A DNA stretch of 39,077 nucleotides from an uncultured Methylococcaceae bacterium (GCA_903857165.1 CAIODU010000314.1:1-39077), one strand, 5' to 3'; shown: positions 9,103 through 23,893, counted from the first letter of the stretch. Notes: generated by a model from the sequence alone, not told the origin. A program made the numbers and translations.

Positions 9103-9813
9103 TCAGTGTGATTCATAATTCCCCGTCGTAGATGACTTGTTGATTAGGCAATTGACGATAAAACCAAGAATGGCCGAACCAGCCAAACCAAAGGCGACGT
9201 ACTGCATTCCCGTGAACAAATCCCTTTGGATCAGCCCCGCACCCAGCAGGCATGCGGTGATCCCCAACGGCAAAAAACCTAACAGGCTACCGAAGATAAA
9301 ACCGCCATGGCTTACCGGGGCCAGCCCAAGCAGCACATTGTTATAGAAACCGTTTAATGGCAATTGCCGCAGCACCACCACCGATAATACCCCCTGGTTT
9401 TCCATAAGCTTCGAAAATCCACGAAAACGCGAAAAATGGCGAAGGGCGTAATCCCTCCCGCGCCAGCGGAAAAACAAAAAGATAACATAGGAACCGATGA
9501 GTGTGCCGAGTTGTGACCAAATCAACCCCCAAGCGAATCCAAAGGCCATCCCGCCAAGTGCGCACAGCAGCAGGCGGGGTGTGCCAATGACGGTAAGCAA
9601 TGCGGCGGCCACTGTGAACGCCACGGGCGCGGCGAAGCCCAACAGGGCCAGTTGATCCTTGATGATTTGACCATCAGCCAGCCAGTCCTTCAGCGGGGTC
9701 AAATAGACCACTAGGACCAGCCCGGTCACAACAAGTAAGACACCGCCGTTGACGACGCCAATCATGCGCCTCGTGGTGCGGGGTTCAATCTCAGAATGTC
9801 GGTTGCCGCTCAC
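9103..9813 (-). CDS. TVP38/TMEM64 (SNARE-associated/DedA-like) membrane protein
   Basis: A 236-residue protein with about six hydrophobic segments. The central segment 'GGMAFGFAWGLIWSQLGTL' and the following 'RQLPLNGFYNNVLLGL' match the SNARE_assoc (PF09335) family found in TVP38/TMEM64 and DedA proteins. These inner-membrane proteins are linked to lipid scrambling or undecaprenyl-phosphate recycling, which would suit the first gene of a polysaccharide operon. A MITE (9819-9964) ends 5 bp upstream of the start codon, so the ancestral promoter region has been displaced. An alternative start at Met17 is possible. Confidence 0.8.
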   Translation of the reverse strand: MSGNRHSEIEPRTTRRMIGVVNGGVLLVVTGLVLVVYLTPLKDWLADGQIIKDQLALLGFAAPVAFTVAAALLTVIGTPRLLLCALGGMAFGFAWGLIWSQLGTLIGSYVIFLFFRWRGRDYALRHFSRFRGFSKLMENQGVLSVVVLRQLPLNGFYNNVLLGLAPVSHGGFIFGSLLGFLPLGITACLLGAGLIQRDLFTGMQYVAFGLAGSAILGFIVNCLINKSSTTGNYESH

Positions 9814-9818
9814 GGGGT

Positions 9819-9964
9819 CACTGCCATTAAGTTAACAAAACATCGTCGTTCCGGCATGGACCGCCGGAACCCAGGCTCCAGGGATGGCGCGGGCTTGGGG
9901 GCGTCCCTGCAATCTGGATACCGGCGGGTCCATGTCGGTATGACGGCTTAACTTAATGGCAGTG
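9819..9964. mobile_element. MITE-like element with CACTGCCATTAAGTTAA termini, copy A
   Basis: The 146-bp element begins CACTGCCATTAAGTTAA and ends with its inverse complement TTAACTTAATGGCAGTG. Flanking direct repeats CTCACGGGGT (9809-9818) and CTCACAGGGT (9966-9975) look like a 10-bp target duplication with one later change, offset by one base on the right. The interior is a degenerate inverted repeat of the 'GTCATTCCGGCATGG' type, also found in the neighbouring element at 10145-10356. It carries no coding sequence. Related copies lie at 16937-17095 and 35510-35663. The remaining 180 bp up to 10144 show nothing recognisable. Confidence 0.8.
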
Positions 9965-10144
9965 ACTCACAGGGTGGGAAGTCTCGGTGCAGAATGACAA
10001 CAGTGGGCCCTCGGCGGGTGAATCAAGGCTGTGATTTTATTGAATCCCGGCCATCAAAGCCAGCCTGTGAACATAAATCAATGGAATCAAAGATATTTTA
10101 CAGTATTTCACCGTTTGGCTTAAACGACAATCCCCTAGGTTCAA

Positions 10145-10356
10145 AACCAGCAATTCTCATTATGTGCCAAAGTGCTGATAGACAACTCGTCATTCCGGCA
10201 TGGATGCCGGAATCCAGTCACAAGGATGTGAATCCAGGGGTCGCCATCAAGCCTTTTTCAAACGCTTACGCAACCGACATGTCACCGTCCCTGGCACTGG
10301 ATTCCGGCATCCATGCCGGAATGACGGCAATGGAGCCATAATGAGAATTGCTGGTT
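10145..10356. mobile_element. Non-coding inverted-repeat element (MITE-like) upstream of the TIR operon
   Basis: Outer perfect 20-bp inverted repeats AACCAGCAATTCTCATTATG (10145-10164) and its complement (10337-10356) enclose a second, perfect 29-bp inverted pair (10189-10217 and 10297-10325) built around CATTCCGGCATGGATGCCGG. There is no convincing gene inside. The element ends about 70 bp before the TIR gene, so it may carry or replace that operon's promoter. It shares the inner palindrome with MITE copy A but not the termini. Confidence 0.75.
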
Positions 10357-10427
10357 CCAACCCCCCTGTTCAATCTAGTGTAAAATCCCCGTGTATGAAG
10401 CTTTAAAATCGCCGGGAAACAGAAGGA

Positions 10428-11783
10428 ATGCCGCCACTCAAGCTCTTTGTCAGCCACAGTTCCAGATTGGATGATGTGGATCATCACTACTCCGAGGACG
10501 ATCACAATTGGCAGTTGCTTGAAACCATCTGTCAAGCGATTCGCGATAAATATGTAGACCAGATTGACGTTTTGGTGGACAAAGACCGACTGAAACCAAG
10601 CGACGACTGGAATCACCGCCTGAATCTTTGGCTACAGGAATGCCATGCTGCCATCATTCTGTTCTCCAAACGCGCCATGGAAAATTCCGCTTGGGTGGCC
10701 AAAGAAGCCACCATCCTCAGTTGGCGGGCCGAATTAAACCCGAAGTTCAAACTCTTCCCCGTGATGCTGAAAGGGGAAACCACCCCGGACGACTTGAAAA
10801 GGGTTTGCTCCGGCGTGTTGCAGATCGACCGATTCCAGTGTGTTCATGATGTGCAAGAAGCCAAGGACATACTCGACGGCATCGCCGAAGCGCTGGATGC
10901 ACTGAAAGACTTGGCGAAACTTCCCCTGACACCGATGGAAATCCTGCAAGAGGGCATCGCGAAGATCCTCGACCAATGCACCGAAGCAAGCTTGCGCTTG
11001 GCATTGGAGGACATTTGCGGTCGCCAACCCGAAACCTTGGCGGATAAGAAAGCCTGTGCAAACCGGTTGGCCCAATTGTTTTTAGAAACCAAGCCTGACA
11101 ACCCCACCCATTGTTTTACTACGTTTCAACAGGGCCTAGGCCCGCTGAAACCCCTGCCCTGTCCGCAAGAAGCCATTGATCTGCTTAAGCTGGTTCGTTC
11201 GCTGTGGGTAGAGCCTGACGATGCCGCTGCTTTGCGTCTGGCGAAAATCCACCGCCATCATGTGGCGCTGAACGGCCACTGTATCTCAGCGAACGGCCCG
11301 GATAATAAAACTCGCTGTTACACCTTGGAGAGGTATATCGAACGCGCTTGGCCGTTGAGCAAGGACAAATTCCTCATCGTGAGCTTGACCGGAGCCAAAC
11401 CCTTGGAGCAGATTCAACAAGAGATTCGGGACAACTGCTTGGGACTATTGCCGCCTTGCCCCTTGCCAAACGCAGACCAACTCAGCGATCAAGCAGTAAA
11501 TGAAGATGTTAGAACCATCATCGTGCTAATACCGGCCTATAAAGACAAAGGTGGATTGCCCGATCCTGACAGTTTGAAGAAATTACTGGAATTATTCGCG
11601 ATTTATAACAAAATCATGTTGGTTTTCGATTTGAGAGACGAACATCCAGAATTGCCACCTACCGTGAAATACGCCCAGCATAAATTAAGGGATAAAAACG
11701 CCATGAAAGCTTTTCTTGATTGCGAAAACTTAGCCTATCGTCGTGAAGGCGCGGTTAAAACCTACCTGAATGATCTTTATTGA
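10428..11783 (+). CDS. TIR-domain protein, putative effector of a conflict system
   Basis: A 451-residue protein. Residues ~4-150 form a TIR domain: it opens 'LKLFVSHSS', has 'VDVLVDKDRLKPSDDW'-like strand/loop order, 'AAIILFSKRAMENSAW', and Glu93 in 'AWVAKEATIL', the position of the catalytic glutamate in NAD-cleaving TIRs. Residues ~160-310 are helical ('MEILQEGIAKILDQC'), and the C-terminal part is unassigned. Activity would be NAD+ hydrolysis or signalling when triggered; this is inferred from the family. It is the first gene of a four-gene operon, 9 bp before the MoxR gene. The AGAAGG upstream of the ATG is close to the start, so initiation may be weak. Confidence 0.8.
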   Translation: MPPLKLFVSHSSRLDDVDHHYSEDDHNWQLLETICQAIRDKYVDQIDVLVDKDRLKPSDDWNHRLNLWLQECHAAIILFSKRAMENSAWVAKEATILSWRAELNPKFKLFPVMLKGETTPDDLKRVCSGVLQIDRFQCVHDVQEAKDILDGIAEALDALKDLAKLPLTPMEILQEGIAKILDQCTEASLRLALEDICGRQPETLADKKACANRLAQLFLETKPDNPTHCFTTFQQGLGPLKPLPCPQEAIDLLKLVRSLWVEPDDAAALRLAKIHRHHVALNGHCISANGPDNKTRCYTLERYIERAWPLSKDKFLIVSLTGAKPLEQIQQEIRDNCLGLLPPCPLPNADQLSDQAVNEDVRTIIVLIPAYKDKGGLPDPDSLKKLLELFAIYNKIMLVFDLRDEHPELPPTVKYAQHKLRDKNAMKAFLDCENLAYRREGAVKTYLNDLY

Positions 11784-11792
11784 GCCAGGTCC

Positions 11793-12755
11793 ATGAACAA
11801 ACTCTACCAACCCAAACACTTAAAAATACCTTCAGCAGACTGGATATTGGAAGCTTCCGAAAACAACCAACCTTATGTTTTCAATGAAACAATAGCCATT
11901 GTCGTGGATGTGGCTTTAGCCACCCACCGGCCCTTGCTGGTATCGGGCAATCCAGGTTGCGGCAAGAGCCGGCTGGCGGATGCCATCGCCGCCGTGCAAG
12001 GCTGGAGTCTGCTGTCTATGACCATGACCTCGCGCACCCGCTTGGAATCGCTGACGGCGGAGGTGGATCAATTGCGTCGCCTCCATGATGCCCAAGCTAG
12101 ACCAGAAAATTCCGCGTTGAAGCCTGATGCCTGCTATCTGAAACCCGGCTTATTTTGGTGGGCCTTCCAGCCAGAAACGGCAAGATTTAGGGGGATGGAC
12201 CCGTCGGAAGCGGAAACATATCAAGCACATCTGCCCTATCGGGGTATTCAGGGCAAAGAAAAAAGCCATGCCGTGCTGTTGATTGACGAAATCGACAAGG
12301 CCGAGCCAGACCTTCCAAATGACTTGCTGGAGCCTTTGGATCAGAAGCAATTCGATCTGCCCGATGGTTTTCAGGTTCATGACAAAACCTATATAAAACT
12401 GTCTGAAAACATCCAATTGCTCACAGTCATCACGACCAATGGAGAGCGCGAATTGCCGCAAGCCTTTCTCCGGCGCTGTGTGTTGCTGCGACTGCCTGAT
12501 CCCGAACCGGACAAGCTGGTCGAGATTGCCCTGAAACATTTCCCCAAAGGCAATCAAGCCCGAATTAAAGCCATTGCCGACAAATTTCCCGATTTTCGTG
12601 TGGAAGCCAAGTCGCAAAGTCGCAGACCGCCCGGAATTAGCGAATTCTTGGATGCCATCAACGCCTGTGAACAATGTGGAATTGAAATCAGTGAAAAGGA
12701 TGATTCGGTTTGGAAAAAGATTGAAAATGCCGTTTTGATCAAGGGCAAGACTTGA
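11793..12755 (+). CDS. MoxR-type AAA+ ATPase
   Basis: A 320-residue AAA+ protein. Walker A is 'SGNPGCGKSRLADAIA' (residues ~51-66), Walker B 'VLLIDEIDKA' (~161-170), followed by a sensor strand 'LLTVITTNGERELP' and arginine-finger region 'AFLRRCVLLRLPDP'. This order matches MoxR/dynein-related ATPases that partner with vWA-domain proteins. It likely works as an oligomeric NTP-dependent switch or chaperone controlling the adjacent vWA and TIR proteins. Its TGA overlaps the next gene's ATG (TGATG), so the two are translationally coupled. Confidence 0.85.
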   Translation: MNKLYQPKHLKIPSADWILEASENNQPYVFNETIAIVVDVALATHRPLLVSGNPGCGKSRLADAIAAVQGWSLLSMTMTSRTRLESLTAEVDQLRRLHDAQARPENSALKPDACYLKPGLFWWAFQPETARFRGMDPSEAETYQAHLPYRGIQGKEKSHAVLLIDEIDKAEPDLPNDLLEPLDQKQFDLPDGFQVHDKTYIKLSENIQLLTVITTNGERELPQAFLRRCVLLRLPDPEPDKLVEIALKHFPKGNQARIKAIADKFPDFRVEAKSQSRRPPGISEFLDAINACEQCGIEISEKDDSVWKKIENAVLIKGKT

Positions 12756-13738
12756 TGGAAAAGATGCGCGGCGAAATCCACTTGGGCGATTTTGCGCAAG
12801 CATTGGCTTCGTTGCCTTGGCAAAACGACGACCAAGCGCAAGCCATTGCCGCTTGTTTGGGTTTTGGTCTCGCGCCAAGCCTGCCGCCTAAGCCCAACGA
12901 AGGAATTTACGACCGGCATTCTTATAGCCAGCCAACCCCGTACAAGCCCAAGCTGCCCACCCCGCCGCCAGTGTTCATCCCACCCGTGCTGGAGCCTCCG
13001 CCAACACTACCGCCGACTAAGCTGGAAAGCCAAGTGGACAGTTGGCAAACGCTTGCCCCTCCAATTGAAAAATCACCCGATTGGTTGGGTGAAAAACACG
13101 AATCCGTTCAAACTATCAACGAAACCAAAATAGCCCGTCTTTCCTTGTTCCCGGAACAGACCCACCGCCACATCCTTGCCGCCGCCTTGGCGACCCGGCG
13201 CATAGGCCACGACATCGACCTCCCAAAACTCATGGCCTCGCTATGTCGCCGCGAGGTGCTGACCCAATTGCCGTGCCGCCCGGAAGCCAGTTTGGAGCGT
13301 GGTTGCGACTTGCTGCTGGACTACAGCCCTAGCATGGTACCGTTTTGGGAAGATTTGAACGGCTTGATCGAACAAGTCGGACGAGTGGTGGGTGCTGCCA
13401 ACGTGCGAGTATTCGGCTTCGATACCCGACCGACCGAAGCCAAACGCTGGACAGGGGATGGCAAACTGCAAGGCTGGCAGGTGCAGAAGCGCCCCGTGCT
13501 GGTGGCGACAGATTTTGGCATTAGCGGTTTGCAATGCCGTGCAGAGTCGGACCCGGCATGGCATGGACTGATTGCCGACTGCACGAAAGACGGCAGTCCC
13601 TTGGTGATTCTGATCCCCTGGCCGGAAGACCGTTGGCCCAAAGGTTTGGGTGGCTATCCCAAACTGGCCCATTGGAGTCCGCGCACCACGGCGGCGATGG
13701 TGAAAAGGCAAATCGGTCCCGGACATTGGATGAGATAG
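12755..13738 (+). CDS. vWA (MIDAS) domain protein partnered with MoxR
   Basis: About 327 residues. The N-terminal ~45 residues are helical, then a Pro-rich linker (residues ~47-92, 'PPPVFIPPVLEPPPTLPP') leads into a C-terminal domain. There 'LLLDYSPSMVPFW' gives the D-x-S-x-S metal-ion-dependent adhesion site (about D189, S191, S193), and 'FDTRPTEA' and 'LVILIPWPEDRWP' form later strands. Together with the upstream MoxR ATPase it forms a MoxR-vWA pair; in related systems this pair gates an effector in response to a sensor. The start overlaps the MoxR stop by one base. It resembles proteins annotated as SAV_2336-related, but I could not run that comparison. Confidence 0.75.
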   Translation: MEKMRGEIHLGDFAQALASLPWQNDDQAQAIAACLGFGLAPSLPPKPNEGIYDRHSYSQPTPYKPKLPTPPPVFIPPVLEPPPTLPPTKLESQVDSWQTLAPPIEKSPDWLGEKHESVQTINETKIARLSLFPEQTHRHILAAALATRRIGHDIDLPKLMASLCRREVLTQLPCRPEASLERGCDLLLDYSPSMVPFWEDLNGLIEQVGRVVGAANVRVFGFDTRPTEAKRWTGDGKLQGWQVQKRPVLVATDFGISGLQCRAESDPAWHGLIADCTKDGSPLVILIPWPEDRWPKGLGGYPKLAHWSPRTTAAMVKRQIGPGHWMR

Positions 13739-13801
13739 AAAGGAGCGTCAAAGCTTGCTTTGACTTTGGGCAGAGATAACTTAAACACTAAACAAAATCT
13801 C

Positions 13802-16432
13802 ATGACTTGGCGCGATACCCATCGTTTTGAAAAGCGCATCCTGGAGGATGTCAAGGCATCATGGCCGAAGGAGATGATTGCTTTGGCCCGCTGTCTGGCC
13901 TTGGCCCCGCGCATTGAACCCTTATTGCTGCGCAATGCCCGCTTGCATTTTGTGCAGGAAGCCCAAGCCGAGGCGGAATCCCTGCTTTGGTTTAGCCCCT
14001 TGGTTGCCGCCCGCAGTACCCGCGAAATCGTATTCCATCTGGGTGTGTCGAAAGCCTTGGCGCAAGAATGCAGCGATGAACAGCGTGACGAGCATTGGCG
14101 GTTCACCCAGCGGCACACCCGCCATTGGAGCGAGGAAGACCGCTTGGAACGCGACCTGCGCTATTATGCCCTGAAGGACGACCCACAAGAGGTTCGGCTT
14201 AAACTACGGGAAATCCTTCGCCGTATCCATGACGAGTCGGAGGAATCTCGCATCGCTTTGTCCCGGTTGCTGAAGCGCACGATGCCCGTGATTGCACCCT
14301 ATGGAGGAGATGACCTTGAAGCCAAGTGGTTGATCAAATTCGCCGCGCTGGCGCTGGGCGATGCCGGTGACTGGATGAATCCCGGACTGCCGCAAGCCTT
14401 GCCCGAATGGCTGGAAGCCAAACTACCCAAATTGCCCCCTCACATTCCCAAAGCTGAATTGGGCGTGGAAACCCGCACGGATGGCCGCAATCAAGTGCTG
14501 CATTTCATTGCCGCCGACCAAGTCGAGCCCAATAACCGCATTCCTTTGCCCAGCCCCTTGCCCGCCCAACTGCATGTCGCCACGGATGGGCCGGGGGCTT
14601 GGCATATTGTCAACTTGGGCACTCGTATTGTCATTGATCCGCCTAGCCAACACCTGCGCTTGACGACCTTGGATGGCCGACAATGCTTGTTGCGGACGGA
14701 GACTGCCCTCACCCCAACACCCCTCTCAGAGAGAGAGGGGCTTGATTCAACGCGAGTGTCTCCATTGTGGCTGGCACACACCAAGGCCGACAAAGACCAA
14801 GCGCAAGCCATCGCGGACTGGCTCAAAGCACAAGGCGTGGATGCAGAATTGTTTGAGGAGTCTGCTTCGTCGGCCAGTCCGTCCAGCGCCGAACCCAAAC
14901 CTACCAAAGTGGTGCGGCTGTGGACCCAAGCCGCCCATCGTTACTGGGCCGGGCGTCCCGCGCTGGAAGCCGAGGCAGTGGCCGAAGGCTTATTACTGCT
15001 CATCGAGGACGTGGACCTGCCCCAGTTGGGTACTGGGCTGGGCCATGTGCTGGATTGGCGCGACTGGCGTAGCCTGGACGCATCGCCCCAAGCCCGGAAA
15101 CTGCTGGACAACCTACGCCGCTGGCGCGATGGTGGCGAGATCGAGCCTGAATCCTTGTCCAAGACCGACTCGGTTTCCAAAACCGAGTCGGTCTCAGGTG
15201 ACGCGCAGGGAGGGGGCGAATTTTCCCCCGAAATCCAATCCCTGTTGGCCGAGATCGACAACCCTGACACCCCACCGCCCCGCCGTCTGGAAATTGGCGA
15301 CTGCCTCGCCGAGTTGGGCGACCCGCGCCCCGGTGTCGGCGTGGTTGAAATTGAAGTGCCAGTTCAGTCTTCTGATGCTCGTTCCCAAGCTCCCGCTTGG
15401 GAACGCGATCCGTCGGCTGTAGGGGCGAATTCATTCGCCTTTGAAGATTCTTCATCTGGGCGAATGAATTCACCCCTACAAGAGGGTTCTTCGATAAAGC
15501 AGGGTGAGGATGCCTTCCCCCCCCAAATCCAAGCCCTGCTCGACGAAATCAACAACCCCGCCACCGAGCCGCCGCGAAGGCTGGAAATCGGCGATGAACT
15601 GGATAAGCTGGGCGACCCGCGCCGGGGCGTGGGGCTGGATGCCAACGGCTTGCCTGACATCGACTGGGTGGAAATCCCCGGCGGGCCGTTCATCTACCAA
15701 AACGGCGAGACCCGTGAATTGCCGACCTATTGGATTTCCCGTTACCCCGTCACCAACCGGCAATTTCAAGCGTTTATTGATGCGGGCGGCTACCAAAAGC
15801 CCGCTGCCAAGCGCGGCAAGGCAAAGGCGCTACTGGACAAATTGACTGGCCATAGCGAGGAAAACCCCGATTGGTGGAAAGATTTGCAACAGCCCCAACC
15901 GGCAAAATCCACCTGGCCGCAAGGCAACCGCCCGCGCACCGATGTCGATTGGTACGAAGCCGTCGCCTTCACCCGCTGGCTGTCGGCGGCCTTGGGCCTG
16001 CCAGCCAAAACCATCCAACTGCCCTTCGAGATGGAATGGGAGAAGGCGGCGCGGGGCGAGCATGGGTTGATCTACCCTTGGGGCAACGAATATCAATCTG
16101 GATTTGCCAATATCGACGAAAAGTCTGGAAACGCTGGCAAATGGTATCTGGAGCAGACAACAGCCGTTGGATTGTATCCTCATGGCCGTTCGCCTTACGA
16201 GGTTGAAGACATGGCCGGTACGGTGTGGGAATGGTGTTTAAACAAATATGAAAAGCCGGATATGACCAAGGCCGACACCAGCGGCGACTCCCGGGTTTTG
16301 CGCGGCGGGTCTTGGTTCTACTATCTAGGCCTCGCGCGCGCCGTCTTCCGCAGCTGGGGCGATCCCGACGCTCGTGGCTACTTCGGGGGTTTCCGGGTGT
16401 TGTCTTCGGTCCCCATTCACGCTGTCCGCTGA
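13802..16432 (+). CDS. DGR variable protein 1: multidomain protein with C-terminal FGE/C-type-lectin fold
   Basis: About 876 residues from the ATG at 13802; a TTG at 13760 is an alternative start nearer the AAAGGAG at 13739. The N-terminal ~300 residues are helical and unassigned. Two copies of a ~40-residue motif (around 474-512 and 572-612, '..EIQSLLAEIDNPDTPPPRRLEIGD..') precede a sulfatase-modifying-factor/FGE-like domain (~617-876: 'DIDWVEIPGGPF', 'YPVTNRQFQAFI', 'DMAGTVWEW', 'RGGSW'). The final variable segment is VR1. The catalytic Cys pair of true FGE is not evident after RGGSW, so I infer a binding rather than enzymatic fold. It is the last gene of the TIR-MoxR-vWA operon. Linkers contain in-frame dispersed repeats. 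Confidence 0.85.
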   Translation: MTWRDTHRFEKRILEDVKASWPKEMIALARCLALAPRIEPLLLRNARLHFVQEAQAEAESLLWFSPLVAARSTREIVFHLGVSKALAQECSDEQRDEHWRFTQRHTRHWSEEDRLERDLRYYALKDDPQEVRLKLREILRRIHDESEESRIALSRLLKRTMPVIAPYGGDDLEAKWLIKFAALALGDAGDWMNPGLPQALPEWLEAKLPKLPPHIPKAELGVETRTDGRNQVLHFIAADQVEPNNRIPLPSPLPAQLHVATDGPGAWHIVNLGTRIVIDPPSQHLRLTTLDGRQCLLRTETALTPTPLSEREGLDSTRVSPLWLAHTKADKDQAQAIADWLKAQGVDAELFEESASSASPSSAEPKPTKVVRLWTQAAHRYWAGRPALEAEAVAEGLLLLIEDVDLPQLGTGLGHVLDWRDWRSLDASPQARKLLDNLRRWRDGGEIEPESLSKTDSVSKTESVSGDAQGGGEFSPEIQSLLAEIDNPDTPPPRRLEIGDCLAELGDPRPGVGVVEIEVPVQSSDARSQAPAWERDPSAVGANSFAFEDSSSGRMNSPLQEGSSIKQGEDAFPPQIQALLDEINNPATEPPRRLEIGDELDKLGDPRRGVGLDANGLPDIDWVEIPGGPFIYQNGETRELPTYWISRYPVTNRQFQAFIDAGGYQKPAAKRGKAKALLDKLTGHSEENPDWWKDLQQPQPAKSTWPQGNRPRTDVDWYEAVAFTRWLSAALGLPAKTIQLPFEMEWEKAARGEHGLIYPWGNEYQSGFANIDEKSGNAGKWYLEQTTAVGLYPHGRSPYEVEDMAGTVWEWCLNKYEKPDMTKADTSGDSRVLRGGSWFYYLGLARAVFRSWGDPDARGYFGGFRVLSSVPIHAVR
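14706..14744. repeat. Dispersed palindrome embedded in the variable-protein gene
   Basis: CCCTCACCCCAACACCCCTC followed by a GAGAGAGAGGGG arm forms a hairpin-capable unit. In frame it encodes 'LTPTPLSEREGL', a peptide known to arise when this widespread bacterial intergenic repeat is translated. It lies between the helical N-terminal half and the following domain of VP1. Confidence 0.65.
15380..15479. repeat. Two further dispersed palindromes embedded in the VP1 linker
   Basis: The first palindrome, CGTTCCCAAGCTCC-CGCTTGGGAACG (15380-15405), belongs to a family with relatives at about 16921-17110 and 35491-35670. The second is an inverted pair TAGGGGCGAATTCATTCGCC / GGGCGAATGAATTCACCCC (15420-15479), related to 549-571. 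Both are read through in frame and encode the linker between the two copies of the 40-residue motif. Confidence 0.7.
16288..16412 (+). repeat. DGR variable repeat VR1 (3' end of VP1 gene)
   Basis: These 125 bp align without gaps to the template repeat at 16607-16731. By hand count the template has 30 adenines in the core, and 23 of them are changed here (to T, G or C). No C, G or T of the template is changed. The changes cluster in the codons after 'RGGSW' and before 'GFRVLSS', altering surface-loop residues of the C-type-lectin-like fold. The invariant 3' block GGTTTCCGGGTGTTGTCTTC acts as the likely initiation-of-homing region. Confidence 0.95.
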
Positions 16433-16448
16433 TTGGCTGTCCGCTGCA

Positions 16449-16479
16449 CCGCCGCGCCAGCGGCGGTCGAATTTTTTTT
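16449..16479 (+). terminator. GC hairpin plus T-run after VP1; also probable DGR target-recognition hairpin
   Basis: CCGCCGC-GCCA-GCGGCGG (7-bp stem, 4-nt loop) is followed by eight T residues from 16472, a classical intrinsic terminator. The identical block follows VR2 on the other strand (18868-18899) but is absent after the TR. DGRs often need a small hairpin just downstream of the VR for target recognition, so a double role is possible. Confidence 0.75.
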
Positions 16480-16483
16480 CAAC

Positions 16484-16507
16484 GTAGGTCGGCAACCCTT
16501 TGCCGAC
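16484..16507. repeat. Dispersed repeat GTAGGTCGGCAACCC...
   Basis: This 24-bp unit (GTAGGTCGGCAACCCTTTGC, then CGAC) recurs exactly at 18812-18835 and in degenerate inverse form at 18741-18764. All three lie in the non-coding parts of the DGR locus. Its core CGGCAACCCTTTGCCG is palindromic, so it is probably a REP-like sequence. Confidence 0.6.
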
Positions 16508-16558
16508 GAATCCATTGAAAAAGTAAGTTGTTTCAGCCGTGATTTTTTTGGTTGTGTT

Positions 16559-16567
16559 TGCTATAGT
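16559..16567 (+). promoter_or_regulatory. Possible extended -10 promoter for the template-repeat RNA
   Basis: TGCTATAGT is an extended -10 match (TG-n-TATAGT) 40 bp upstream of the TR, after the VP1 terminator. No good -35 hexamer is seen at 16-18 bp, so the assignment is tentative. It would start a transcript through the TR towards the reverse transcriptase gene. Confidence 0.35.
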
Positions 16568-16606
16568 GGCGATGCTGGTTCGCCAGCCGGGTGCCCCGTA
16601 ACCGAC

Positions 16607-16731
16607 CTCCCGGGTTTTGCGCGGCGGGTCTTGGATCAACAATCAAGACAACGCGCGCGCCGACAACCGCAACAGGAACAATCCCGACAATCGTAACAAC
16701 AACAGGGGTTTCCGGGTGTTGTCTTCGGTCC
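16607..16731 (+). repeat. DGR template repeat (TR)
   Basis: A non-coding 125-bp copy of the variable protein 3' end, rich in AAC/AAT codons. It shares the 5' block CTCCCGGGTTTTGCGCGGCG and the 3' block ending TTGTCTTCGGTCC with both variable repeats. The core has 30 adenines; VR1 differs at 23 and VR2 at 19 of them, and nowhere else. Codons are mainly AAY plus AGG, GAC and ATC, which cannot become stop codons by adenine substitution. It lies on the same strand as VP1 and the reverse transcriptase. Its transcript would be the template for mutagenic reverse transcription. Confidence 0.95.
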
Positions 16732-16760
16732 ACACGGCATTGGCTTGGCATTGCTTGGGG

Positions 16761-16782
16761 CTTGCCGGTCAAGGTCGGCAAG
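16761..16782 (+). ncRNA. Stem-loop in the TR 3' flank, likely part of the DGR template RNA
   Basis: CTTGCCG-(8 nt)-CGGCAAG forms a 7-bp stem 30 bp after the TR. It is nested in a weaker outer pairing of GGCATTGC (near 16747) with GCAATGGC (near 16800). In studied DGRs the RNA downstream of the TR folds and primes cDNA synthesis with RT-Avd, so this is a candidate for that segment. Confidence 0.4.
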
Positions 16783-16936
16783 ACAAGCGCCAAGGCCGGT
16801 GCAATGGCGCGGGTGCGTCCGGTCCGCATGTTTGCGCATCGGGCATATACAAAACTGAGGGCGTTGCCTGGATTCGCTCCCGTAGCGCCCGCCTTTCGAT
16901 GAAAATGGGCTTTTTTATTGTTCCCATGCTCCGCAT

Positions 16937-17095
16937 CACTGCCATTAAGTTAAGGATTTTTCCGTTCGCCCTGAGCTTGTCGAAGCCTGTCCTGAGCTTG
17001 CCGAATGGGGGTTGACGGAAAAATTCAACTCATTGGTGTTTAAGCCGTTCATGGTTCGACAGGCTCACCACGAACGGCTTAACTTAATGGCAGTG
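16937..17095. mobile_element. MITE-like element, copy B, inside the DGR
   Basis: The 159-bp element has termini CACTGCCATTAAGTTAA and TTAACTTAATGGCAGTG and no coding content. The interior contains GTTCGCCCTGAGCTTGTCGA and a related inverted segment. It is homologous throughout to copy C (35510-35663, opposite orientation) and shares only the ends with copy A. Flanks ATGCTCCGCAT and ACGCTCCGCGT suggest an ~11-bp target duplication inside a TTCCCA-type palindrome. It lies between the TR flank and the avd gene. Confidence 0.85.
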
Positions 17096-17121
17096 ACGCT
17101 CCGCGTGGGAAAGATTAAGAT

Positions 17122-17469
17122 TCATGCTATTTTCAGCCAGCCGCCAAGCAGTCGGCCAATTTCGGCAACCAGCCGGCTAACATGTTCGTATTGACCATTG
17201 TTCAGCCACTGCCATCGGTGTGCCAGGCGCAAATACAGGCGTACCGTATCCAAGTGCGCATCGCACTCCAACAATAGTTGTCGGCGCTGCGCCCCGCGTT
17301 GCTTGCGGGCAAGAAACAATTTTTCCTGAAAATTCAACACCGCATCCCCCAAATGCCGGGTGACATTGTAACGGTAAGCCTTGGGGAATGTTTCGGTTTT
17401 GGGCAATAGCCAGTCCAGCAGGTCATATGTGCGTGTCAACAATACTAAGTTTTCTGTGGTTTCCGCCAT
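17122..17469 (-). CDS. avd: DGR accessory protein, Avd-like four-helix bundle
   Basis: A 115-residue basic, all-helical protein. '[36 protein letters not shown]' spans helices 1-2 in the manner of Avd/S23-like bundles (fragments '[14 protein letters not shown]' and '[14 protein letters not shown]'), followed by Arg-rich '[13 protein letters not shown]' and two further helices. Avd proteins form a pentameric barrel that binds the reverse transcriptase and template RNA. Unusually for DGRs, it faces away from the RT gene, and the two ATG codons share the CATG at 17467-17470. A TR-to-RT transcript would therefore be antisense to it. Confidence 0.8.
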
Positions 17470-18556
17470 GTGTCCGACTCCTTACAGTCTATACCAACAA
17501 ATTTATGCCTTCGACAACCTGTTTATTGCCTGGCAAAAAGCCGCCAATGGCAAGCGCTCAGGCCCCATGGTGGCACGTTTTGAAGATGGCGTGGCTGACC
17601 ATCTGCTCGAACTTCAAGCCGAATTGGCCACCGGTAGCTATCGCCCCGGCCCCTATAAGCACTTTACCATCGAAGAGCCCAAACGGCGTTTGATCAGCGC
17701 CGCGCCGTTCCGCGACCGGGTGGTTCACCATGCCTTATGCAATCTGATCGAACCCCTGTTCGAGTCACGTTTCATTCCTGACAGTTACGCCAACCGCTTG
17801 GGTAAAGGCACCCACCGGGCGGTCGCCCGTTGCCAAGCGTTTTCCCGGTCTTATCCCTATGTGCTTAGGCTGGATATCGTCAAGCATTTTCCGTCCATTG
17901 ACCATCAAATCCTGTCCGATAATCTAAGCCGCGTCGTCGCCGACGGGCAGACCTTGGCGTTGATCGGGAAAATCCTCGCCAGCGGCGATGGCATTGCGGA
18001 TCAGGATTACCGTCCGCCGTTGTTCAAAGGGGATGATTTGCTGGCTTGGTGTCGGCCCCGTGGCTTGCCCATCGGCAATCTCACCTCGCAATTCTGGTCA
18101 AATTGCCATTTGCACCCGCTTGACCTTTTCGTCAAGCGCGAACTTGGCTGCAAGGCTTATCTGCGCTATGTGGACGACTTTGCCTTGTTTGCCGACAACA
18201 AAACCACGTTGGGGGAATGGAGGCAAAGGATTATCGAACGCTTGGCCGCGATGCGCTTGTGTGTCCATGAAAGCAAGGCACAAGTGTTGCCGGTGCGTTG
18301 CGGCATCCCTTGGCTGGGGTTTGTAGTTTACCCCACCCATCGCCGCGTGAAAGCCCGCAAAGTGGTGGAGGCGACACGGTGCCTAGGCGAGCGTTATGAT
18401 GCTTGGCGGTGCGGCAGCATCAGCTTTGGCGAATTTGATGCCAGTGTGCAGGGTTGGATCAATCATGTGCGTTACGCGGACACCTGGGGGCTGCGCACTC
18501 ATGTGCTGAAAAAATTTGTTTGGTCCAAATGTTCTTGGGCGTTTAATGTAAATTGA
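17468..18556 (+). CDS. DGR reverse transcriptase
   Basis: A 362-residue reverse transcriptase started at the ATG at 17468 ('[19 protein letters not shown]'); DGR RTs typically begin this way. Conserved motifs are '[15 protein letters not shown]' (first catalytic Asp, D136), '[14 protein letters not shown]' (~199-212; the SQ in motif 4 is characteristic of DGR RTs rather than group II introns) and '[11 protein letters not shown]' with YVDD at 234-237. A short thumb follows; there is no maturase or endonuclease domain. With Avd it would copy the TR RNA, misincorporating at adenines. The C-terminal codons run into a perfect 35-bp palindrome. Confidence 0.95.
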
Positions 18557-18579
18557 AGTTTCAAACTTCAATTTACATT
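18545..18579. repeat. Perfect 35-bp palindrome spanning the RT stop codon
   Basis: Arms AATGTAAATTGAAGTTT (18545-18561) and AAACTTCAATTTACATT (18563-18579) flank a single C. The TGA stop of the RT gene lies inside the left arm. It is AT-rich without a following T-run. It could end transcription from both sides (RT and VP2 converge here) or be a protein or recombination site. Confidence 0.7.
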
Positions 18580-18740
18580 GTTGAAGGGTAAGGGCAACTC
18601 ATCACTTGGTGTTATCCGCTGTAGCAACGGGCCGTGTCGGCTAAAATAATGGGAACGGAGTGGATTTGGCTGACTCCTAAACGTTAATTTTGAAGTGATT
18701 GGTTGAATAACTGATGTTACGCGCAGCCACCAAAACCGTT

Positions 18741-18835
18741 GGCGGCAAAGGGTTGCCGCCCTACGATCTAGGGGTCTACGGTCTGGGGGGGCTGGAATGG
18801 CCATAACCGCCGTAGGTCGGCAACCCTTTGCCGAC
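18741..18835. repeat. Inverted pair of 24-bp dispersed repeats between RT and VP2
   Basis: GGCGGCAAAGGGTTGCCGCC (18741-18760, then CTAC) and GTAGGTCGGCAACCCTTTGC (18812-18831, then CGAC) face each other and match the repeat at 16484-16507. The rest of the RT-VP2 spacer (18580-18867) shows no gene. Confidence 0.55.
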
Positions 18836-18867
18836 TTGTGCGTAACATCAGTGAATAATTCCCATGC

Positions 18868-18899
18868 AAAAAAAAATTCGACCGCCGCTGGCGCGGCGG
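18868..18899 (-). terminator. Hairpin/T-run after VP2, identical to the one after VP1
   Basis: On the minus strand CCGCCGC-GCCA-GCGGCGG (18882-18899) precedes a run of nine T residues. The whole block from VR2 through the hairpin matches that after VR1, whereas the TR lacks it. It serves as terminator and probably marks the homing target. Confidence 0.75.
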
Positions 18900-18915
18900 T
18901 GCAGCGGACAGCCAA

Positions 18916-19674
18916 TCAGCGGACAGCGTGAATGGGGACCGAAGACAACACCCGGAAACCCCAGCCGAAGTGACGAGAGTCGGGAACGTTCCCGTAGCGG
19001 TAGTCGGCGCGCGCGAAGCCTTGATAGTAGAGCCAAGACCCGCCGCGCAAAACCCGGGAGTCGCCGCTGATGTCGGCCTCTGTCACCTCCGGCTTGTCGT
19101 ATTTGTTCAGACACCACTCCCACACCGTCCCCGCCATGTCTTCAGCTTGGTAAGGCGATTTGCCATGGGGATACAGGCCCACCGCCGTGGTCTGTTGCAG
19201 ATACCACGGCCCTGCTTTCTGCTCGGTTTCGTCGATATTGGCAAACCCGGAGCGGTATTCATTCCCCCAAGGATAAATCAACCCTTGCTCGCCCCGCGCC
19301 GCCTTCTCCCATTCCTGTTCGGTGGGCAGGCGGATGGTATTTTCTTCCAAACCCAACACCGCCGACAGCCAGCGGGTGAAGGCGACGGCTTCGTACCAAT
19401 CGACATTGGTGCACGGACGGTTGGTTTGCGGCCAGCGGGAGGCTTGCGGTTCCGGCTTTTTCAAATCCCGCCACCAATGTTCGTCTTGATAGCCGCCGTC
19501 GTCGATGAAGGTTTTGAATTGTTGGTTGGTGATGGGGTATTTAGCCATCCAATAGGCATCCAGATGCACGGTGGTTGGTTGTTTGCCTTCGCCGTACACG
19601 AACGGGCCTGCCGGGATTTCGATCCAACTGATGTCGGGGACGCGCAGGGTGCGGGTTTGCGGGATGGGCTGCAT
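18916..19674 (-). CDS. DGR variable protein 2: stand-alone FGE/C-type-lectin fold protein
   Basis: About 252 residues from the ATG at 19672-19674 (MQPIPQTRTLRVPD); an upstream TTG at 19725 is possible. It consists almost only of the sulfatase-modifying-factor/FGE-like domain: 'DISWIEIPAGPFVYGEG', 'KYPITNQQFKTFIDDGGY', 'WYEAVAFTRWLSAVLG', 'LPTEQEWEKAARGEQG', 'AEDMAGTVWEWCLNKY', 'RGGSW'. It is closely similar to the C-terminal domain of VP1, indicating duplication. The last 42 codons are VR2. Lacking the N-terminal part of VP1, it may act as a diversified soluble or partner sensor. No signal peptide is seen. Confidence 0.9.
   Translation of the reverse strand: MQPIPQTRTLRVPDISWIEIPAGPFVYGEGKQPTTVHLDAYWMAKYPITNQQFKTFIDDGGYQDEHWWRDLKKPEPQASRWPQTNRPCTNVDWYEAVAFTRWLSAVLGLEENTIRLPTEQEWEKAARGEQGLIYPWGNEYRSGFANIDETEQKAGPWYLQQTTAVGLYPHGKSPYQAEDMAGTVWEWCLNKYDKPEVTEADISGDSRVLRGGSWLYYQGFARADYRYGNVPDSRHFGWGFRVLSSVPIHAVR
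18936..19060 (-). repeat. DGR variable repeat VR2 (3' end of VP2 gene)
   Basis: On the minus strand these 125 bp align gaplessly to the TR. By hand count 19 of 30 template adenines are replaced and no other base differs. The pattern of substitutions differs from VR1 (for example AAC template codons give CAC, TTC, GGC here versus GGC, TAC, TTC in VR1), so the two targets were diversified independently. Confidence 0.95.
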
Positions 19675-19805
19675 GGGTGTCGGGCCTTGGTCTGGGTTTT
19701 GACGGCGAGTGAAAAAGCATGGCAACCCTTATAGGATGCGTCTGACGACATTTAACCAGAATCCAACCCTTTTTTGGGATGTTGTGCGACAGCGCAAATT
19801 TTTTC

Positions 19806-19835
19806 TTGACTCCATAATTACGTTCGTATTACGAT
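19806..19835 (+). promoter_or_regulatory. Probable sigma-70 promoter of the PHA operon
   Basis: TTGACT (19806-19811) and TACGAT (19830-19835) are separated by 18 bp, about 30 bp before the first PHA-operon ATG. The segment between and just upstream contains small inverted repeats (TACGTTCGTA; TTGTGC..GCGCAA near 19783-19798) that could be repressor sites. This is inference from sequence only. Confidence 0.5.
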
Positions 19836-19866
19836 AAGCATACACAAATTGGGTCTTGGAGGAATC

Positions 19867-20241
19867 ATGGCGCTCAAGCCCGTCACACTAAGGTTGGATG
19901 AAGAAGAGTACGAGAAGCTGAGAGCCCACCTGAGCAAATTCGGTGACCCGGATATCAATGTGGCCTACGTTCTGAGAGCCTATATCAGGGATGTCAATAG
20001 AGTGATGCCTTTCCTGATCAGTTCGGGATGGGATTTGAAAAACTACTTCGGGCTGGTCGGTTACTGGCTCAAACAAATCGGTTCAATCACCGATCTGGAG
20101 ATGTTCGCAAAATTGCCGCTGAGTCCTTGGGCCTATTGGAAACCAACCGAACTTCAAAGCGGCCAAAATAGTGAAAATTTTTCGGCACCAAGCCAGGCCG
20201 AGCCGTTTGATCAGAACGGACAGGCCGGGCAATCCAAATGA
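19867..20241 (+). CDS. Small protein with possible ribbon-helix-helix N-terminus, first gene of the PHA operon
   Basis: 124 residues from the ATG at 19867, with GGAGGAA just upstream. 'MALKPVTLRLDEEEYEKLRA' resembles the strand-helix start of ribbon-helix-helix DNA-binding proteins. The rest ('VAYVLRAYIRDVNRVMPFL', 'WDLKNYFGLVGYWLKQ') is amphipathic and could equally contact PHA granules. Genes of this type before phaE/phaC may regulate PHA synthesis. I do not recognise a named family, so the regulatory role is inferred from position and N-terminus. Confidence 0.55.
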   Translation: MALKPVTLRLDEEEYEKLRAHLSKFGDPDINVAYVLRAYIRDVNRVMPFLISSGWDLKNYFGLVGYWLKQIGSITDLEMFAKLPLSPWAYWKPTELQSGQNSENFSAPSQAEPFDQNGQAGQSK

Positions 20242-20322
20242 GGAAGAGACGGGCTGAACACACATCGAACGTTCCTTCCAATCCACTTTAACACTAACGA
20301 CTGAACGAAAGAAGATAATATT

Positions 20323-20763
20323 ATGTATACGAATCAAGACATCATGAAAAATATGATGGATCTGTTTTCAAACCCGTTGTTTAGGACAGGGTTTTCCGAG
20401 TTTGTCACGAAAGCCCAGCAAGAAGGGCTTGAATCCGCCAAAAAGTTTTGGGGATTCTCAGAGTATGGGAAAACATTTCCCTTGACGGGCGATATCTACG
20501 AACGTTTGACCGATTGGTATTCGGTTCTCGGTTTTGTGCCTAGTGCGAACTACAACCAGGCGGTTGAGGAAAACACCAAACTGAAAGCTGAAAACCAACT
20601 CCTAAGAAATATGATTAAGGACTTGCAATTAAACCTTTTTACCGAAGGGGGTGAAAAAGCCCAGCAGGTTTGGCATGATATCATTGACAAACAAATCAAG
20701 ATGAATACTGAAGTGGCCAATACTTTTTTTGAGGCTATTCGGAATTTCAAGGCAAGCAGTTAA
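20323..20763 (+). CDS. Phasin-like protein
   Basis: 146 residues, mostly helical. The N-terminus is hydrophobic-amphipathic ('MMDLFSNPLFRTGFSEFVTK'), followed by a coiled-coil-like 'NYNQAVEENTKLKAENQLLR' and 'LQLNLF'. The pattern resembles phasins and the N-terminal part of PhaE. It would coat PHA granules or bind the synthase. The gene is followed after 61 bp by another small helical protein and then phaE-phaC. Family membership is inferred from context more than from a motif. Confidence 0.55.
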   Translation: MYTNQDIMKNMMDLFSNPLFRTGFSEFVTKAQQEGLESAKKFWGFSEYGKTFPLTGDIYERLTDWYSVLGFVPSANYNQAVEENTKLKAENQLLRNMIKDLQLNLFTEGGEKAQQVWHDIIDKQIKMNTEVANTFFEAIRNFKASS

Positions 20764-20824
20764 TTTTGTTGACTCCGTCCACCATCAATTACCAACCATC
20801 TACAACCAAAACGAGGATACGACA

Positions 20825-21175
20825 ATGGATAAAGGCATAGAGTTTTTTGACGCATGGGCAAAAACCCAGAAAGAATTTCTTGATACTTCACTCAAGACAC
20901 AGGAAGTTTTTCGGGCGAACTGGCTCGATTCATTGAAAAAATCGCAAGAGTCCTTTTTCAGCACAGCCAATTCAGCGAACAATCCACACGCACAGGATAT
21001 CCTTAAGTTATTCAATGCATGGATCGGCACGATGATAAGCACTTCTGAACTTTTCAACGGTGAAGTTGTGAAACTGCAACAATCATGGGGGAAGACTTTG
21101 GATAATCAAATTGAGCAAAGCAAGGAATTGACTAAGGTGTTCACAGAATACCTACAAAAGGCTGGACCTAAATAG
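20825..21175 (+). CDS. Phasin-like small protein (PhaE N-terminal-like)
   Basis: 116 residues from the ATG at 20825 with an upstream GAGG. The sequence 'GIEFFDAWAKTQKEFLDTSL' closely parallels the start of the downstream PhaE ('SYFETWSKAQEKLFEGF'), both being 'W-x-K-x-Q-x-x-F/L' amphipathic helices. It looks like a truncated paralogue of PhaE's N-terminal domain. Probable role: granule-associated phasin or regulator of the PhaE-PhaC complex. Confidence 0.6.
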   Translation: MDKGIEFFDAWAKTQKEFLDTSLKTQEVFRANWLDSLKKSQESFFSTANSANNPHAQDILKLFNAWIGTMISTSELFNGEVVKLQQSWGKTLDNQIEQSKELTKVFTEYLQKAGPK

Positions 21176-21301
21176 TTCATCCGTGCAAAGTGCCACCAAG
21201 GCCCGAGAAGAGACTGACATCGTCTCTTCTGGCCCGTGGCATGCATGGGTGCAATGCGATGCCGAAGAAGCTTGATCAAAGCCAACCCAAAGGGGAATCA
21301 C

Positions 21302-22360
21302 ATGGAAAATGTACAAAGTTATTTTGAAACCTGGTCCAAGGCACAGGAAAAATTGTTCGAAGGGTTTGTCGAAAACACCAAACGGGCACAACAATTATTT
21401 TTCAACCAACAAAATCCATTTCAGTTTGGCGATTCTGGCGGAGCCAATAACCTTTACTCATCTTGGATCTCGGCGGTGATGAAATCCCTGTCAGATGCCG
21501 GTAGTGGCAGTCAAGTCATCAAAGACAACCTTGCCAAAATGCTGGGTGGATCGAATGCCTACACGAAGCTCTATGAAGTGTGGCTCCCGTTGATGAAGGC
21601 GGCCCAAGAGAGGAGTATGAATCCAGATGCCTATAAGGATTATATCGATCCTTCCAAATACAAGGAACTCATCGACAAGGTTTTTGGTTTTGACTCGGAT
21701 GCCAACCAACTGATGCTCAACCAGGCGGTTCAATTTCTTGAAATGTTATCGGGGTCGGGGCAGCAGTTCGCCACACCGTGGCTGGAAGCGACGAAGGCAA
21801 GCCTTCAAGCCTATCCACAGTTTGCACAAGGGCACCCGGAATCATTCATCAAAATATTTCATTCGATGTTCAATGCCTTCGACAATACGGTGGGCAAGGT
21901 TTTTCATGTACCCCCAGTCGGCAAGGACAGGGAGAAGTTTGAATTGATCTTGAGGTGTTTTGATGACCTCACCGTGTATGCGGCAAAGAATACCGAATAC
22001 CAGCATACGATTTACATCACCGGGCTTACCGCCATGGAAAAGGTCGTCGAAAGGCTTGCTGAAAAAATCAGTTCAGGCGAAGAAATCAAACAATTCGATG
22101 AATTTTTCGACGTCTGGATCGATACGAGTGAGCAGTCCTATTTCAAGCTATTCCAAACCGAAGAATTTGCCAAGCTTCAGGGTGAATTGCTTGATACGTC
22201 ATTGAACGTCAAGGCGCATTTTTTCAAAGTCATGGAGATGCATCTGTCTGACCTTCCCATCGCCCTGCGTTCGGAAATGGACGATCTTTATAAAATCGTT
22301 TACGACCTTAAGAAAACGGTCAAGAAATTAGAGAAACAACTCACTGAGGTGAGCCAATGA
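21302..22360 (+). CDS. phaE: Class III PHA synthase subunit PhaE
   Basis: 352 residues from the ATG at 21302 (preceded by AAAGGGG); the frame's extra upstream codons are unlikely to be used. Helical throughout, with the WSKAQEKLFEGF start, 'PLMKAAQERSMNPDAYKDYI', and a C-terminal coiled-coil segment 'IVYDLKKTVKKLEKQLTEV'. Length matches PhaE of purple sulfur bacteria (~350-360). PhaE has no active site but is required by class III PhaC. It overlaps phaC by 4 bp (ATGA), giving coupled stoichiometry. Confidence 0.85.
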   Translation: MENVQSYFETWSKAQEKLFEGFVENTKRAQQLFFNQQNPFQFGDSGGANNLYSSWISAVMKSLSDAGSGSQVIKDNLAKMLGGSNAYTKLYEVWLPLMKAAQERSMNPDAYKDYIDPSKYKELIDKVFGFDSDANQLMLNQAVQFLEMLSGSGQQFATPWLEATKASLQAYPQFAQGHPESFIKIFHSMFNAFDNTVGKVFHVPPVGKDREKFELILRCFDDLTVYAAKNTEYQHTIYITGLTAMEKVVERLAEKISSGEEIKQFDEFFDVWIDTSEQSYFKLFQTEEFAKLQGELLDTSLNVKAHFFKVMEMHLSDLPIALRSEMDDLYKIVYDLKKTVKKLEKQLTEVSQ

Positions 22361-23541
22361 CACATACCCTTTTGTCTTTTGACACAAAGTCCTTAATCAA
22401 GGAATTCGGCGACCTCAACACCAAGTTCATCAAGGGGGTGTCGGCGCTGACCGAGATTGAAGAAATTGATGTGGGTACCGCGCCCAAGGAATTAATTTAT
22501 GAGGAGGACAAGCTAAAGCTGTACCGCTATAGCCGTAATGAACCGAACACCTGCCGGACTCCGGTATTGGTCGTTTATGCGTTGGTGAACCGTCAGTATA
22601 TGCTTGACCTTCAACCAGACCGCAGCATGATTAGGAACCTACTTAATCTTGGCCTGGATGTGTTCATCATCGACTGGGGATACCCCAACAAAGCCGATAT
22701 GTACCTTACCCTTGACGATTACATCAATGGCTATATCGACAATTGCGTGGATGTGGTTAGAAAGGTAACGCAAAGCGATAAAGTCAACTTAATGGGCATC
22801 TGCCAAGGCGGGACGTTTTCTGCGATTTATGCGGCACTCAATCCTGATAAAATCGAAAATCTCGTGACGCTGGTCGCCCCGATTGATTTCTCGACCAATG
22901 AGGGTCTATTGTTCAATTGGTCCAAGCATCTGAACATTGACGCCCTAGTGGATGCGTACAAGATCATTCCGGGGGATTTCCTGAATGGCGGTTTTTTGAT
23001 GCTGATGCCCTTCAACCTGAATATCCGCAAATATGTGGATATGTTGGATGTGATGGAAGACAAAGACAAACTGCTCAATTTCCTGCGGATGGAAAAGTGG
23101 ATATTCGACAGTCCAGGGCAAGCGGGCGAGTGCATGCGCCAATTCATCAAAGACTGCTATCAACAGAACAAACTCGTCAAAGGCGAGCTTAAACTAGGTG
23201 ACCGTTTGGTGGATTTGGGCAATATCACCATGCCTTTGTTGAATATCTACGCTTCCGCCGACCACCTAGTTCCTCCTGCCTCCACAAAGCCTCTAAACGA
23301 TCTCGTCGGCACCGAAGACAAAACGCTTTATGAGTTCAAGGGCGGGCATATTGGTGTTTTTGTGGGTGGAAGGTCACAAAAAGAACTGGCCCCCGCCATT
23401 TCCAAATGGCTGCATGAAAGGGATAATGCACCGGAAACAGTAGTCGAAGTCGCCGAAGAAGCCGAACCGGCTGTAGATGAAACCGCATCCGAGGCGGTTG
23501 AAGAAGTCGCCCCGAAAAAACCTAGCAGAAGAAGGACATAA
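22357..23541 (+). CDS. phaC: Class III polyhydroxyalkanoate synthase subunit PhaC
   Basis: 394 residues of alpha/beta-hydrolase fold. The lipase-like box is 'MGICQGGTFS', with nucleophile Cys149. The other catalytic residues fall at Asp302 ('ASADHLVPP') and His331 ('GGHIGVFVG'), the same numbering as in Allochromatium-type PhaC. The enzyme polymerises 3-hydroxyacyl-CoA (mainly 3-hydroxybutyryl-CoA) at the granule surface with PhaE. It is longer than usual: residues ~371-394 form a Glu/Ala-rich tail ending 'KKPSRRRT', possibly a granule or nucleoid-binding extension. No phaA/phaB follows on this strand. Confidence 0.95.
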   Translation: MTHTLLSFDTKSLIKEFGDLNTKFIKGVSALTEIEEIDVGTAPKELIYEEDKLKLYRYSRNEPNTCRTPVLVVYALVNRQYMLDLQPDRSMIRNLLNLGLDVFIIDWGYPNKADMYLTLDDYINGYIDNCVDVVRKVTQSDKVNLMGICQGGTFSAIYAALNPDKIENLVTLVAPIDFSTNEGLLFNWSKHLNIDALVDAYKIIPGDFLNGGFLMLMPFNLNIRKYVDMLDVMEDKDKLLNFLRMEKWIFDSPGQAGECMRQFIKDCYQQNKLVKGELKLGDRLVDLGNITMPLLNIYASADHLVPPASTKPLNDLVGTEDKTLYEFKGGHIGVFVGGRSQKELAPAISKWLHERDNAPETVVEVAEEAEPAVDETASEAVEEVAPKKPSRRRT

Positions 23542-23594
23542 GTCGTTAATAGGCTTGTTCCCAAGCTCCAGCTCTCATCGTTATTCACAACTCG

Positions 23595-23893
23595 TTGCAG
23601 GAGCAACGGAACCCCGAAGGGGTTCAAGCCAAAAGCCTAAGGGTTGAGCGAAGCGACACCCCCGGACGGCAAACCGAATAAAATATCGACCCCGGAGGGG
23701 TCGCAGTTTTTTCTGCGCGAACCTAGGATTCCACCAGTCTGAACCTAGCATTTGCTGCGTTTTCGGAAGATCGCCTAGGTTCATGGGCCGATTTCTGCGA
23801 CCCCTCCGGGGTCGAATGAGGTATTCGATCTCAACCGGGGGTGTCGCTGGCGCTCAACCCCCGGCTAATAGCTAGCAACCCTCCGGGTTGCAA
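23595..23893. repeat. Large imperfect inverted-repeat element downstream of phaC
   Basis: Nested complementary blocks face each other across a centre near 23745: 23687-23706 with 23795-23814 (CGACCCCGGAGGGGTCGCAG, perfect over 20 bp), 23641-23663 with 23837-23860 (GGGTTGAGCG..CACCCCC), AACCTAGG near 23720 with CCTAGGTT near 23774, and GTTGCAGG/GGGTTGC at the ends. Each block also contains its own small palindrome. No coding frame is credible. It accounts for most of the phaC-to-PEP-CTERM gap and may end phaC transcription; the rest of the gap is featureless. Confidence 0.75.

Follow-up and report, generated by a model that had tools for sequence, protein, structure and literature searches.

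A contig of 39,077 nucleotides from an uncultured Methylococcaceae bacterium (GCA_903857165.1, CAIODU010000314.1:1-39077; "the window" denotes this whole stretch) in all likelihood carries a complete cellular diversity-generating retroelement (DGR), with which a methanotroph would diversify two FGE/C-type-lectin proteins through a template repeat (TR) joined to a structured spacer RNA (Sp), a reverse transcriptase (RT) and the accessory protein Avd. The window is one contig of a 4.9-Mb methanotroph genome in the GTDB genus of Ca. Methylumidiphilus alinenensis, and elements of this kind, including their FGE targets and MoxR/TIR neighbours, are already published (PMC7159879, PMC10907252). A sequence-only reading of the window had proposed a complete DGR, and we recovered all of its parts: differences between TR and variable repeats (VRs) that are confined to adenines, an RT of the DGR lineage, an Avd, and a VR at the 3′ end of each of two genes for proteins with a C-type-lectin fold.

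Computational alignment reproduced exactly the coordinates, strands, 125-nt length and gap-free pairing first given for the three repeats: the TR, with 30 adenines (16607..16731, plus strand); VR1, at the 3′ end of target 1 (16288..16412, plus strand); and VR2, at the 3′ end of target 2 (18936..19060, minus strand). The hand counts likewise stood, with 23/30 template adenines changed in VR1, 19/30 in VR2 and 0/95 of the C, G and T sites in either; mismatches at C, G or T in proportion to those at A, which had been named as evidence against a DGR, number zero. Under random placement across the 125 sites, the probability that every mismatch hits an adenine is 2.7e-19 for VR1 and 4.0e-15 for VR2. 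The changes are A-to-T (12), A-to-G (9) and A-to-C (2) in VR1, and 11, 5 and 3, respectively, in VR2. They are thus varied, as had been said, but not unshared: of the template-A sites, 16 differ from the TR in VR1 and VR2 alike, 8 of them with the same base, where about 6.8 would be expected from the base spectrum, and the two sets look independent but overlapping. In the reading frame, most codons of the TR are AAC or AAT; adenine changes cannot create a stop codon, and some 1e17 protein variants are accessible. An adenine-tolerant repeat scan of window positions 9,000-25,000 found no TR-VR pairs beyond TR-VR1 and TR-VR2, and the genome's only other match to the TR (contig C113, 34291-34373), considered as a remote VR, was rejected because it serves as TR in another DGR, which is degenerate. 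Across 50 TR/VR pairs from the window and loci L087-L166, template adenines appear as A in 45%, G in 24%, T in 23% and C in 8%; A-to-C is rare throughout this group and accounts for 5/42 changes in the window.

Repeated overwriting from one TR, together with a conserved recognition site, predicts diverged sequence upstream of the VRs, identical non-A sites within them and an identical flank downstream. VR1 and VR2 lie in target ends that arose by duplication. Comparing the two, we find that 27/146 upstream sites differ (18.5%), that 18/30 template-A sites and 0/95 others differ inside the repeats, and that the 67 nt downstream (16413..16479, plus strand, and 18869..18935, minus strand) are identical, with 0/67 mismatches, in a stretch that is absent after the TR. 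Both flanks contain the hairpin ACCGCCGC[GCCA]GCGGCGGT, with an 8-bp stem and a bracketed 4-nt loop, at 16448..16467 (plus strand, 35 nt after VR1 and followed by a T-run) and at 18881..18900 (minus strand, after VR2). The pattern has just two occurrences in the 4.9-Mb genome, both after VRs and none after the TR. Two close relatives, on Ca. M. alinenensis QJPH01000406.1 (L090/L074) and Ca. Accumulibacter iunctus DDUX01000157.1 (L092), with RTs 60-63% identical to that of the window, have their own paired hairpins after their VRs, of the form G[T/C]GGGGGA[GACT]TCCCCC[A/G]C instead; in L092, the downstream VR flanks are identical at 91/100 sites, and the upstream 146 nt differ at 81. In two-target DGRs more widely (L092, L123, L146, L147 and others), the downstream VR flank is often near-identical and the upstream coding sequence up to half different. 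Because downstream flanks stay near-identical despite diverged upstream coding sequence, the recognition region may extend well beyond the TR homology. A VR hairpin as a universal feature was not seen: in a survey of relatives, one lay within 120 nt of 9/75 VRs versus 2/62 TRs. Inverted repeats resembling repetitive extragenic palindromes also lie beside both VRs and in the gap between TR and avd (16483-16507, 18743-18765, 18811-18835 and 16914-17118), and recall the repeats like miniature inverted-repeat transposable elements reported at Thiohalocapsa DGR loci.

Target 1 (13760..16432, plus strand; 890 aa, start codon uncertain) joins an unassigned N-terminus to a C-terminal FGE/C-type-lectin (CLec) domain that contains VR1 (PF03781, E=1.4e-43), and has orthologues in congeners. 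Target 2 (18916..19725, minus strand; 269 aa) consists of an FGE/CLec domain alone, containing VR2 (PF03781, E=3.6e-48), and matches PDB 2y3c, Treponema denticola variable protein 1 (E=4.8e-12). The C-type-lectin fold is also matched by a structure model in which the VR part is of low confidence; a map of variable residues on the predicted structure of target 2 was set aside, as AlphaFold confidence is below 50 over most of the VR. Target 1 further contains an internal duplication of 143 nt (15205-15347 and 15499-15641, 71%) that encodes the repeated linker EIQSLLAEIDNPDTPPPRRLEIGDCLAELGDPRPGV.

Related genomes bear on whether the element is still at work. When orthologous VRs from three congeners, five copies in all, are aligned with VR1 and VR2, 30/30 template-A columns are variable versus 14/95 others. 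Each congener VR carries 3-10 non-A mismatches; some of these recur among congeners, whose own TR may differ slightly from that of the window. Contigs of two congeners, G001 (C232, C179; L194, L215) and G003 (C275, C101; L193, L213), encode orthologues of both targets with adenine-diversified VRs; the VR hairpin is cut in half in G003, and target 1 of G001 has an in-frame stop. Loss of the DGR from these two genomes is only partly supported, because some of the contigs end 0.1-0.5 kb from the VR, though G003:C275 runs 2 kb past its VR without an RT and with the hairpin cut. We infer recent or ongoing activity in the window from the 0/190 non-A mismatches over VR1 and VR2, set against 18.5% divergence of their flanks and the 3-10 mismatches of congener VRs. 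That same contrast argues against an alternative that we consider unlikely without dismissing it, namely a once-active, now silent DGR whose cassette is intact in sequence and whose VRs are frozen. Degenerate DGR remains are common in the genus, the same genome holds a truncated RT with TR and VR on C113, and G001 and G003 keep both target orthologues with no orthologous RT or avd detected, all of which speaks for a silent element; here, however, RT, Avd, TR and Sp are intact and both target frames are open. The element offers a clean and complete case from a methanotroph that is uncultured. With VRs of this element left as fossils or orphans in sister species, the rates at which VRs are rewritten and at which they decay can be compared within a single genus.

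The RT (17468..18556, plus strand; 362 aa) matches the family profile PF00078 and contains the motifs LPIGNLTSQ and YVDD, as originally noted. Its likely start is the ATG at 17468, not the TTG at 17381 of a longer open reading frame. The avd gene (17122..17469; PF22296, E=2.5e-19), which also matches solved Bbp7/Avd structures in the PDB, is encoded on the minus strand, opposite to TR and RT, a strand that the sequence-only reading had left unmentioned in proposing an Avd-like protein; the product scores above the cut-off of the NCBIfam model DivGenRetAVD (NF033474; 85.8 versus 80 bits), and the ATGs of avd and RT overlap within CATG at 17467-17470. In a tree of 103 RTs, with five other RTs as outgroup, the window RT falls in the DGR part together with those of BPP-1 and other phages, and this part is split from the five others, which are of the same family and order, at a support of 100. 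Placement among group II introns, once named as a possible refutation, is therefore not what the tree gives, and the notion that the locus is what remains of a group II intron or retron, its repeats being fortuitous, is left with almost no probability: the RT does match the group II model TIGR04416 at 126.6 bits, but the cut-off of that model is 300; the closest solved relative of the RT is 8ub7, an RT chain from structures that include Avd as well (E=1e-47, versus 1e-20 for a group II RT); and repeats that differ at adenines only, beside an Avd, have no place in it. It is scarcely credible either that the VRs resemble each other through ordinary gene conversion between positively selected FGE paralogues, even with about 45 FGE-domain genes in the genome, since conversion and selection would not spare 95/95 C, G and T sites, third codon positions included, yet change 23/30 adenines, and the TR lies outside any intact target gene.

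Beyond the TR, the DGR includes a strongly covarying structured RNA, Sp (16726..16832, plus strand), that starts at the TR 3′ end. The 100-170 nt after the TR are conserved among loci in which avd is antisense. Aligned on sequence only (n=10), they form three helices, P1, P2 and P3, of 25 pairs, with 90% of cells paired and 47 compensatory cells, versus 16.5 +/- 3.4 in shuffles and 5-15 in slid controls; for P1, pairing within loci exceeds pairing across loci, and 10/20,000 permutations did as well. A covariance model (R2) trained on eight loci, the window excluded, has the Sp at the TR 3′ end as its only match in the window (E=4e-4), also matches L099, L119, L095, L100, L103 and L106, and gave no credible match on 277 kb of control loci. 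A 15-locus model matched 28 DGR loci, all on the TR strand, with the Sp beginning 5-17 nt before the TR end in the 21 of them that have a called TR, in hosts from Acidobacteriota, Chloroflexota, Pseudomonadota, Myxococcota and Bacteroidota. It yields 177 compensatory cells versus 54 +/- 6.6, on an alignment that was fitted to the model, and we prefer the sequence-only test with n=10. A search of Rfam with the Sp gave no credible match, the Sp model had no match above noise on BPP-1, and 34 other DGR loci with a TR were unmatched. As the BPP-1 spacer folds and recruits RT-Avd (PMC12875486), the Sp is likely to function in a similar way.

Ten relatives with the closest RTs share with the window an avd that is antisense between TR and RT, several of them with a second target convergent behind the RT; the L090/L074 and L092 loci have both the layout TR plus, avd minus, RT plus, VR minus and the Sp RNA, and differ in target N-termini. 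On the RT tree, the antisense-avd loci group together in a single 12-row clade (support 97), its sole exception being L094, where no avd was found. The clade has hosts in three phyla (Acidobacteriota, Chloroflexota and Pseudomonadota), and the cassette therefore has probably moved between phyla. It is, in our judgement, an even question whether cellular DGRs from five phyla have in common an undescribed family of structured RNA that licenses RT-Avd (a spacer from the last TR bases, with closing helix P1, hairpin P2 and a conserved GCG..GUCC.GUCCGC hairpin P3) and include a sub-lineage, that of the window, with avd inverted between TR and RT, so that template RNA and Avd come from opposite strands. 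If this is true, the inverted avd would uncouple template supply from the supply of the accessory protein. The covarying Sp offers a route to cellular DGR templates and their strand without VRs, and makes the steering of an RT by RNA, so far mainly the subject of BPP-1 work, open to testing in cellular DGRs by compensatory mutation. Specialists would find most to follow in the layout clade and the spacer RNA. The avd message of BPP-1 has its 3′ end next to the TR, and this end carries a motif that halts reverse transcription (PMC12875486); because the end of target 1 occupies that position in the window, the stop here would be a different one.

Upstream, target 1 is the last gene in a series with a TIR-domain protein (10428..11783, plus strand; 451 aa, unassigned C-terminus; PF13676, E=2.3e-9), a MoxR-like AAA ATPase (11793..12755, plus strand; PF07728, E=1.3e-13) and a vWA-like protein with LLLDYSPSM and its DxSxS motif (12752..13738, plus strand; PF05762, E=0.0019), with 9, -4 and 21 nt between successive genes. 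The set of four genes recurs in G001:C232 and G037:C224, with distant versions in G003:C234 and G006:C326. MoxR-vWA ternary conflict systems include FGS and TIR domains and a gammaproteobacterial link to DGRs (Kaur 2020, PMC7159879), and DGR loci with MoxR, TIR, a target with a long unassigned N-terminus and a CLec-only target have been described (Doré 2024, PMC10907252). By analogy with the conflict-sensor role proposed in these two papers, the variable domain of target 1 is most likely a sensor that triggers the TIR effector, and we propose target 2 as a stand-alone sensor or decoy; the TIR-MoxR-vWA-target operon would then strengthen the literature proposal that DGRs diversify immune-type sensors.

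Modelled on BPP-1, the element would work as follows. The TR would be transcribed on the plus strand together with the folded Sp beginning at its 3′ end, and RT and Avd, presumably in complex, would bind the TR-Sp RNA and copy the TR, in an RNA-primed reaction, with errors at template adenines. The resulting complementary DNA would integrate to replace VR1 and VR2, recognized through their common 3′ end and the downstream flank with its hairpin, and the ligand face of the two FGE/C-type-lectin proteins would be re-randomized; on the role suggested by Kaur 2020 and Doré 2024, the variable domain of target 1 would then sense and set off the TIR effector.

Several observations weigh against this picture of the DGR and its neighbourhood. 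An antisense avd rules out a single sense transcript as the source of TR RNA, Avd and RT together, and no good promoter was found, a promoter scan giving no more matches than chance. Phage DGR hairpins have GC-rich stems of 7-10 bp and 4-nt GRNA loops, 4-34 bp from the VR, and do not occur after the TR (PMC3240598), whereas the loop in the window is GCCA, outside the published consensus, and the distance 35 nt; given the T-run behind it, the hairpin may be a terminator. The vWA assignment is weak, PF05762 scoring below its cut-off and the structure model matching vWA domains too weakly to be taken as confirmation of the fold, and the DxSxS motif is incompletely kept in distant orthologues. Profile searches gave no match to a VMAP or iSTAND third component in the C-terminus of the TIR protein or the N-terminus of target 1.

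Among characterized systems, the Bordetella phage BPP-1 DGR has in common with the window a TR, a VR with a 3′ hairpin, Avd, RT and a structured spacer 3′ of the TR. BPP-1 is arranged avd-TR-brt on one strand with Mtd as target, whereas the window has TR and RT on the plus strand, avd on the minus strand and two FGE targets, and the Sp model has no credible BPP-1 match. Thiohalocapsa PB-PSB1 DGR 8 and the 'clade 5A' DGRs resemble the window in gene content as the text describes it, with MoxR, TIR, a long-N-terminus target and a CLec-only target (Doré 2024, PMC10907252). The window differs from the DGRs of that study in its separate vWA-like gene between MoxR and target 1 and in its antisense avd; the main text of the study is silent on avd orientation. 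With the iSTAND/VMAP MoxR-vWA systems (Kaur 2020, PMC7159879) the window shares MoxR, a CoxE-like vWA, FGS (FGE), TIR fused to a larger protein and the gammaproteobacterial DGR link, but it has FGS and vWA in two different proteins rather than in one fusion, and neither VMAP-C nor iSTAND was recognized in it.

The host genome (G000) contains further DGR-related sequences. A second, degenerate DGR occupies 13820-18375 of locus L039 (G000:C113:16000-35900), with a NACHT-like FGE target and its VR (14605-14723), a TR (18257-18375) and an RT cut to 137 aa that overlaps an avd. Another locus (L042, G000:C114, 263-1519) encodes a DGR-like RT with YCDD, 42% identical over 240 aa, seemingly frame-disrupted after the catalytic motif and near type I restriction-modification-like genes. 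Many of the roughly 45 FGE/C-type-lectin genes end in RVLRGGSW...GFRLA, as DGR targets do, and may be orphan DGR targets; several encode proteins of 1,000 aa, and one (L198) lies near MoxR- and vWA-like matches. This multiplicity of DGRs and FGE genes resembles that reported for the Thiohalocapsa DGRs.

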